Source of the DNA: Warburgia ugandensis
Lineage: Eukaryota > Streptophyta > Magnoliopsida > Canellales > Canellaceae
Assembly (NCBI GenBank): GCA_035236585.1
Contig: CP141134.1
Location: 18,158,414 to 18,222,413 of the forward strand
Direction: 5' to 3'
Length of the DNA: 64,000 nt
Shown: piece by piece, positions 45,990 to 49,372 of the stretch
Layout of the letters: each line of letters starts with the position of its first letter
Numbering within the stretch: the first letter of the stretch is position 1
Made by a program: the position numbers and the translations under genes
Notes under the pieces: generated by a model
What the model saw: the letters and a program-made list of their open reading frames with translations, nothing else
The model's database searches: none
What the model was told of the DNA's origin: nothing

Positions 45990-48281
45990 TGTGACACCTT
46001 CTATTTTTAAATTCTAGAAATGCCCAATTACGTGGAAATTAGAATATTGGAGAATTGAAAATTTTAAAGATGAAATCACAAGCTAAAACCTCAATATTTG
46101 AAATGTACTCGAGACATGGAATTCAACGCCACTAAGAATGCAAAATTCGGAGGCCTGAGGAAAATTGGATAATTATTTTTATTTTTATATTCAAATAAAT
46201 AACCATAAGGGATAGAAATGTAATTACATGTGTAGGGCCCATAGGGACGGGCCCTGAAAACAAGACACTTCAGACATTAAATGGTATGAAGTGATCATTG
46301 ATGTAATAAATGAAAAACATATTTTTTATTAAAAAACAAAAATTTTAAAACATAATTGTGGGGGGGCCTTGAATGCACCTCCCCTTCCCATAAAAGCCAT
46401 CTCGGTTCTCGCTCAGCCATTACTCCTCAATCCTTGTGTCATAGACGATAGAAATGAACTCAATGTTGGCAATGCCAACAATGATGCTTTCCCTTCTTGT
46501 GTGCACACTCACGACGGATTTCTTCCCCTCTAGTCGACCTAACTTGAGGTAGGTCTGTTCTTTTTTCCCCTCCCCCCATTTCCAGTATTTCCATTGAAGT
46601 TTCACCATTTTTATGTCAAAAAACGATGTGGATTGCCATTTTCTGGTGAGTGTTTACACCTTACTATTGATATGAAAATAAACCGATGCAACACTATTAA
46701 ATGGATGATCTGAACCGTTCATCTTATGCATGCTGAGACAGAGAACAAACTCATGAAATCTCATGGAGATCCAACGGCTAGGGATGCTAGGAAATGTGAA
46801 AAATCAAGTAAAATCCTTAGAAATATGCAAAATTAGTTGATGGGAAGGTCATAAAGTGAATGTACATGAAAAATCGATCAAAATGGTGTAAAAATTGCAA
46901 GTTTTGGGCAATTGGGCGTTGTCGGTGGCTACCGGAGTCCAGTTCTCATCTCTGACGAGGGCGAACTATGTGGGACGCACTCAGAGAAGCACAACATGTA
47001 ACGCGCACATGCGGGTAGTGCGTGCATTGTCGTTGGGTGCAGCGTAATGTGTGTGTGTGTCTAGGAGATCGTGACACATGAGGAGGCGCGTTACGACCCG
47101 CATTGTGTGCACTTGCATCTGAATGATGGTGATCCAGCGGGGACACGTCCTGTACAAGCCTCGTGTGCGTGTGCATCCCCATGACGCCATTCCGATTTTC
47201 TAATTTTCTTGATTGATTTAGGCCATCCATTGTCATTGTATCGACGATGCGAACCTAGGTCTGAGATAGAAACTTCAATTTGACTATTTTTAAAATAGTA
47301 AAATCACAAAATACTATTAAATGGCCTAGATTAGGCCTATCAAAGGATGGTCAAACCTTAGAAATTGATTATATGCATTAAATGTGAGGTAATCAAGGGG
47401 ATTAGAAGAGTAGATCTCAAGTGATTGCCAAGAAAAGTGCTCTTGACCATTGATCTGATTAGGTGCCTTAGGATTGGCTAATTAGAGAGTGATCTAATGT
47501 CAAATTGATGTGTAATCATAGAGATACATGTAAATCACTAAACAAACATTGGAATTAGATAGATCATGATGAGAATAATTTGAATTGACCATCAGATGTC
47601 AATTATAAGTGATAAAGAGCGATTCAACGGTTGGATCGTCTCCAAACCCCATGAGATGTTAGAGGTTGACCCTTTATTGATTAAAGGACATCAATTGAAT
47701 GAATTATGATATAAATTGATGTTCAAAGACCACGGATGATTGTCTAGAGGTTAGAAAAACCAACATTTAGCTCAGGGTTGACCAAATGGAGGGTTAATCA
47801 AATGATCTAGACTATTAATCTAGGATTAACTACCATATCAAGAAAATTATCACTTGGACTTGTTTATTTTGAGATGTGAGAACATTAAGTGATTGATGAC
47901 TTGTGATGTTACAGGTACATCAAAGCGCAAGACTTGACATTGCTTATGCGCGATACCGCATTTTTTTGGTAAGTAATTACATTCGGGATTTTTCCATGAT
48001 TTCACTGATCATGACCTATTATCTGAAGTTCTTGAGGCTTGTGTTTTACACCCTATTGTGTTTATATAAATGTGTTCACTATTTCATGTTCGATAGCATG
48101 ACATTTGATTTTACGATGATCTATGTTTTACATGTGATGGACTATACTTTATCATGGGTTTTGATTAAGCCTATTAAGGTTTATTTCACATGAGGGTTTT
48201 CCATGATTTATAAGATTTTTGTTGATTTATGACGAGTGCTTTAGCCCAGTGGGTACTATGTTAGGAGGATAGTAGGGTTGG

Positions 48282-48519
48282 TGTCACAACCCCGTCAGGC
48301 CCACAGCAATGATATTATCCCGTGCGCACTCACGTGCCACAGGTTTCGCTCTTCCCCCACGTCCAGGGGAAAACTAGTCATTGCTGTGAAGGGAGGCATT
48401 CCCCCTTATAACTCAAGCCCATCACCCCCCCTAACCGATGTGGGACTAACTCTCAACCATCACCCCCTCGGCCTTCTCCGCTTCGCCGCCATCATGGTGC
48501 CTGAGCCGGTAAGGCTAGA
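48282..48519 (-). mobile_element. Inverted arm of the TRIM composite
   Basis: Inverted LTR 48282-48462 (TGTCACAACCCCG to CTCAACCATCA) plus the inverted 3' end of the internal region, including the purine tract (CCCCCTCGGCCTT read on the plus strand). At 48519/48520 it switches abruptly to the direct middle LTR. Confidence 0.85.
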
Positions 48520-48689
48520 TTAGTCCCACATCGGTTAGGGGGGGTGATGGGCCTGAGTTATAAGGGGGAATGCCTCCCTTCACAGCAATGATCGGTTTTC
48601 CCCTGGACGCGAGGGAAGAGCAAAACCCGTGGCACGTGAGTGCACACGGGACAATATCATTACTGTGGGCCCAACGAGGTTGTGACAAG

Positions 48690-48701
48690 TGGTATCAGAG
48701 C
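48690..48701 (+). other. TRIM primer-binding site, perfect tRNA-iMet match
   Basis: TGGTATCAGAGC, 12 of 12, two bases after the middle LTR. It fixes the direct orientation of the right half. Confidence 0.92.
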
Positions 48702-49372
48702 CAAACCCCGACCCCCAGGGTGGATGGCTAACCGCATGCTTACCTCGGTCACGCGAGGGCGTGTGTCCCTTAAGGGGGAGAGATCTAGCCTTGCCGGCTC
48801 AGGCACCATGAGGTACCGTGATGGTGGCGAAGCATAGAAGGCCGAGGGGGTGATGGTTGAGAGTTAGTCTCACATCGGTTTGGGGGGGGAGATGGGCCTG
48901 AGTTATAAGGGGGAATGCCTCCCTTTACAGCAATGACCGGTTTTCCCCTGGACACGGGGGAAGAGCAAAACCCGTGGCACGTGAGTGCGCACAGGACAAT
49001 ATCATTGCTGTGGGCCCGACGGGGTTGTGACAGTTGGCCACCAACCCTCTGATGATTAAACACCTGCCCTTGAGAGGGCCAGGTATGTAGGTGGTGATAT
49101 CATGTGTAGTGCCCCTTACAGGTCCATTCCACGCCCCCCCATGTAGGATAGAGAAAGTCTCCCATTATGGTGTTGGCAGGGAGCAGCAGTGGTTGAGATC
49201 CTAGTGTGGTTGTCACTACATCATAGTAGCCCATTCTCTTATTCTGTATGCTCATGTGATATGAGTTTTTTTAGTTGATGCCTTGGTGGTCGGTAAGATG
49301 TGGGCGGGCCCATGGGCAGGCAAGCTACCTGGTGTGCGAGCACAGGCTAGAGACCTTGGTGTGAGCTACAGA

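Follow-up and report, generated by a model that had tools for sequence, protein, structure and literature searches.

The window analysed here is a stretch of 64,000 nucleotides from Warburgia ugandensis (contig CP141134.1), and at positions 48282-49032 it holds a 751-bp composite with two LTR 3' (U5) ends, both facing outward. An inverted LTR comes first and is followed by a plus-strand LTR-internal-LTR unit, with GTTGG standing outside both ends (Table 1). The first-pass annotation had proposed that the left LTR is inverted, so that the composite shows an identical LTR end on its two outer sides. This was confirmed (TGTCACAACC ... GGTTGTGACA): the inverted arms at 48282-48449 and 48520-48687 are 92% complementary over 168 nt, and a second inverted pair (48282-48434 and 48880-49032) reaches 92% over 153 nt. 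Besides, a direct repeat links 48535-48692 with 48880-49037 at 92%. The perfect GTTGG duplication reported around the whole 751 bp was found as described.

The plus-strand unit contains the parts of a TRIM, namely two short LTRs, a short internal region, a polypurine tract and a primer binding site, which we take to be of the tRNA-iMet type; three program-made ORFs of 65-92 aa overlap it. As inserted, the composite carries the 5-bp target duplication of a TRIM (GTTGG) and lacks the terminal direct repeats that would place U3 at one edge and U5 at the opposite edge, as both of its ends are U5 and mutually inverted. The palindrome also matched the MIR839 precursor model (48357-48611, minus strand, E 5.8e-23), and we take this match as a look-alike, since its 107.9 bits fall below the gathering score of 200.

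Table 1. Parts of the composite and its flanks (window positions)
Feature	Position	Strand
Left copy of the target duplication, GTTGG	48277..48281	.
Left arm, read as a single LTR in inverted orientation; U5 facing outward at 48282, U3 ending at the switch	48282..48520	-
Head-to-head switch, one base (T) shared	48519..48520	.
Right arm, 5' LTR, lacking about 81 bp of the U3 side	48520..48687	+
Internal region, 95 bp; end placed by the polypurine tract	48688..48782	+
Primer binding site TGGTATCAGAGC, two bases inside the inner U5 end	48690..48701	+
Polypurine tract AAGGGGGAGAG, preceding the U3 terminus	48772..48782	+
Right arm, 3' LTR, 250 bp; U5 end outward at 49032	48783..49032	+
Right copy of the target duplication, GTTGG	49033..49037	.

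The head-to-head architecture is common in this TRIM family. The 1.12-Gb genome (14 contigs) was searched with the composite as query; of 1,093 candidates 40 were scored, and these yielded 276 matches. In all, 52 loci were fetched: two sets of 20 from the composite-search list, seven from an LTR-only search (six showing one orientation only there, plus L077, previously suspected to be mixed), and five others, which were taken on contig 1 in coordinate order as lone exact U5 sites absent from the listed sites of U5 plus primer binding site. A minus-to-plus switch is present in 40 of the 52 loci, and in 9 of the 12 that were not chosen by the composite query. Counted as switches, 42 run minus-to-plus versus 4 plus-to-minus; of these four, one belongs to flanking sequence at L038, and the others come from L047, L061 and L078, three loci that appear to be nested. 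The 12 loci without a switch are L041, L048, L051, L056, L065, L067-L072 and L080, with L071 and L072 running off the fetched segment. At L041, L048, L065, L069 and L070 the arrays stop at what appear to be the termini of larger LTR elements, marked by TGACGACCCGGG and TGTAATGACCCCAATTTTTG or similar motifs, and we read these five arrays, judged from one side, as nested insertions.

Strand order was also assessed from coordinates, using the first 100 listed sites of each of three patterns (U5 end; U5 end plus primer binding site; subfamily A). Among the sites listed there are 146 clusters, and all 28 of the mixed-strand ones, some of which are also fetched loci, stand in minus-plus order; the remaining 118 single-strand clusters are uninformative, because only exact or near-exact sites appear. 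Genome-wide, the U5 end occurs 1,145 times (up to 2 mismatches) and the U5 end followed by the primer binding site 483 times (up to 3 mismatches). The gap between these counts, obtained with two search patterns that are not strictly comparable, suggests some hundreds of composite insertions in the genome.

Identical 5-bp flanks were found in 21 of the 24 loci with both outer U5 ends in hand, the window composite (L031) among them, and L079 adds a further duplication, CTTAC, making 22 in total, all different. Together with the uniform order of the mixed clusters among the sites listed, so many matching flanks exceed chance expectation. Outer ends were set or checked by eye at seven loci (L035, L039, L040, L043, L046, L053 and L057). 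The U5-U5 loci lacking a duplication are L044 and the pair L055 and L059, which belong to one segmental duplication. At L045, AACTC is seen on both sides, with 17 extra bases between the duplication and a truncated left U5 end (L045:2430-2450), and this locus was left out of the count. In L060 (1770-1790) the right arm ends at LTR position 150 and is followed by an A run, perhaps a poly-A site.

The internal switch was correctly placed at 48519/48520 by the first-pass annotation, which had further described it as joining inverted internal sequence to an LTR missing about 13 bp; these two details have to be revised. By the landmarks given below, the stretch at 48463-48519 (inverted) and 48783-48851 (direct) is the U3 part of the LTR, lying after the polypurine tract. 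The left arm thus reads as one inverted LTR, and the plus-strand 5' LTR would lack about 81 bp, not 13. We redrew the LTR boundary on account of three observations. Inner arm ends pile up at the U3 terminus, with 12 of 54 ends there against 35 of 930 in simulated random joins, and still 12 of 50 without L047; only near-blunt junctions were counted (27 of 41 observed and 465 of 600 simulated), and L059 was dropped as a duplicate of L055. The polypurine tract, or a close variant, precedes the U3 base in most of the subfamily A occurrences among the 14 commonest contexts listed. In addition, the relative at L068, flanked by the duplication TCAAG, starts at the base homologous to the redrawn LTR start.

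The junctions themselves differ from locus to locus. The window junction was found at a single place in the whole genome (up to 3 mismatches), and the L044 junction is likewise a single occurrence genome-wide. Of 30 junction 30-mers tested from among the 42 switches, 26 matched nowhere else in the 52 loci when up to 4 mismatches were allowed; the second sites found concern a tandem pair within L047, the L055/L059 duplication, and L078, which resembles L050. On these distinct junctions a mobile composite is rejected, and the alternative that had been offered, a one-off event, fails as well, since the same kind of composite recurs in many loci. Overlap at the near-blunt junctions averages 3.3 bp versus 1.48 bp in the simulation (P 0.0003). 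The observed mean is inflated by the tandem pair in L047, and on leaving this pair out it becomes 2.68 bp (P 0.012), so that the microhomology is then modest. The primer binding site showed no excess as a junction hotspot (6 of 54 ends, against 89 of 930 simulated).

Several composites point to two templates, as their outer ends come from different subfamilies. In L040 the left U5 end is of subfamily A and the right one of B, L043 has the reverse arrangement, and L057 carries a third type of U5 end on its left; all three lie within perfect duplications. Arms are often subfamily mosaics, and in 6 of 17 loci the partner arms are mutually the nearest LTR by LTR distances. At L049 (C10, 70.198 Mb), 126 bp made of two pieces lie between two U3 termini (L049:3685-3810). 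Screened for coding content, this insert gave only a weak Pfam match (E 0.09), and it was later traced to a ribosomal locus: its two pieces flank an 18S rRNA gene in a genomic copy (L083:175-1979, minus strand), and one of them stops at L083:1980, immediately ahead of 18S nucleotide 1. This arrangement, a single case at a locus with no intact left end, fits a polymerase that would have left the U3 terminus and jumped onto a fragment from ribosomal processing, at its 3' end.

The U3 terminus reads ATCTAG in subfamily A and GGCTAG in A', both without TG. At six loci (L056, L067, L068, L069, L070 and L080) one outer end is a U3 terminus and the opposite one is U5, and of these only L068, whose terminus is TGTGAA, has a matching duplication. 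L068 (C7, 51.636 Mb) is a canonical insertion with the U3 end on the left and U5 on the right. The TG-bearing U3 terminus occurs 1,751 times genome-wide (up to 2 mismatches). Among the first 100 sites listed, none of 21 multi-site clusters of the TG subfamily is mixed-strand, versus 12 of 25 for subfamily A (p 0.00014), a comparison between patterns that differ in kind, as that for A includes the polypurine tract. No duplication was confirmed at three further TG-subfamily copies: the fetched segments missed the outer end in two, and the flanks differ in the third (L086/L087). The one canonical copy and the strand order together indicate that a U3 end without TG may be dead for integration, a well-motivated reading. 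Were it so, duplication-matched U3/U5 insertions would be expected to be nearly absent from the ATCTAG and GGCTAGCC types and frequent in the TGTGAAG type.

We consider it likely that a TRIM-type element enters this genome as a palindromic cDNA dimer, its minus strands joined at their U3 sides and integrated by two U5 ends, with the U3 end probably dead. Two minus-strand cDNAs, each begun at U5, would be joined during reverse transcription at their inner, U3-side and often truncated ends, most likely by a polymerase that reaches the end of its template and jumps onto the 3' terminus of the second cDNA, with a few bases of homology helping. This would yield a linear DNA bounded by U5 at either side, and an integrase, presumably supplied by another element, would join both ends to the target with a 5-bp stagger. 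Since the U3 end reads ATCTAG without TG, it is probably not integrable, and only dimers would succeed. The proposal of the first-pass annotation that a head-to-head cDNA formed before integration and had two identical ends joined to the target is supported, as it agrees with the present locus and with 21 more, each lying within a separate perfect duplication of 5 bp.

Other routes to the same palindromes were weighed against this one. Ordinary tandem TRIMs inverted in place after insertion found no support and are hardly credible: such inversions would have to recur locus by locus with U5 always outward, as it is in every mixed cluster among the sites listed, and the structures sit inside intact duplications. 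It is improbable, too, that the palindromes are DNA transposons derived from TRIM sequence, moved by a transposase acting on long terminal inverted repeats with TGTCACAACC ends. Inverted ends and fixed 5-bp duplications are indeed present, and the ends are kept while the interior varies, as in deletion derivatives; however, such elements should show the same junction at different targets, against junctions that were mostly confined to one locus here (26 of the 30 tested), and the primer binding site and polypurine tract are placed as an LTR element requires.

Two further explanations concern how the arms were joined. A single minus strand might fold back and copy itself, the hairpin then being opened and integrated, which would account for partner arms that are each other's nearest LTR in both directions; yet a hairpin has one duplex end only, and the arms of L040, L043 and L057 end in different subfamilies, so that we regard this route as very improbable. 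Host end joining could instead link linear cDNAs head to head in the nucleus, the U5 ends then integrating the dimers. All family-level evidence for pre-formed dimers applies equally to it, and short overlaps and truncated arms agree with it. Template jumps by the polymerase are suggested instead by the mosaic arms and by the ribosomal sequence that stops at the 18S boundary; one such case is not decisive, and we judge host end joining unlikely. Joining by polymerase jump is the reading we prefer. In its strongest form, held tentatively and at somewhat less than an even chance, it describes a lineage lacking a U3 integration site and living only as U5-U5 cDNA dimers, formed afresh every cycle when the polymerase jumps from one minus strand to another, beside a TG sister that integrates normally. 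The data suggest a TRIM family for which the second LTR end is no longer usable and which multiplies through paired DNA copies.

The usual assumption is that an LTR element requires two different, correctly formed ends. Here, many natural copies were seemingly inserted by one end used twice, with the sister subfamily as a possible control, and sequence data can show what U3 and U5 each contribute and how cDNAs are joined before integration. Software built to find direct terminal repeats could overlook or misclassify copies of this kind, and the long hairpins of these copies might be sources of double-stranded RNA.

Among known retroelements, DIRS elements have inverted LTRs, use a tyrosine recombinase and are not known to make a target duplication. 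The composites resemble them as retroelements with inverted terminal repeats and differ by the 5-bp duplication. With inverted-repeat DNA transposons they share terminal inverted repeats and a duplication of fixed length, but not, for nearly all junctions tested, the same interior at several targets. In a literature search with subscription journals mostly outside its reach, no family with head-to-head dimers as its usual form was found, nor is the head-to-head form described in the accessible sections of a 2025 paper on tandem LTR elements, a bivalve TRIM paper and the SMART paper. As far as the accessible texts go, what is already in print is one inverted maize TRIM pair with a duplication, and a family with the dimer as its usual form was not found there. 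Cassandra also forms TRIM arrays with shared LTRs; unlike the present family, its arrays are direct tandems with 5S sequence in the LTR, and no head-to-head form is described in the sections available (PMC7215508). No 5S rRNA match was obtained in the window at 48200-49100 at E up to 1. Sabot and Schulman (2007) attributed direct fusions of LTR retrotransposons to template switching, and in those complexes, as here, two elements are fused before integration with a 5-bp duplication outside; theirs are direct fusions with a common LTR, and the word "inverted" is absent from the accessible part of the article (PMC1950507). The closest likeness in structure is offered by the Zma-SMART arrays of maize, in which non-coding LTR units are arrayed and one copy "with two inverted TRIMs" has the target duplication CTTCA (Gao et al., 2016; PMC4717578). 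In the available portion of that paper a single inverted copy is named and the outward LTR ends are unstated, whereas the inverted pair with its 5-bp duplication is the common form here.
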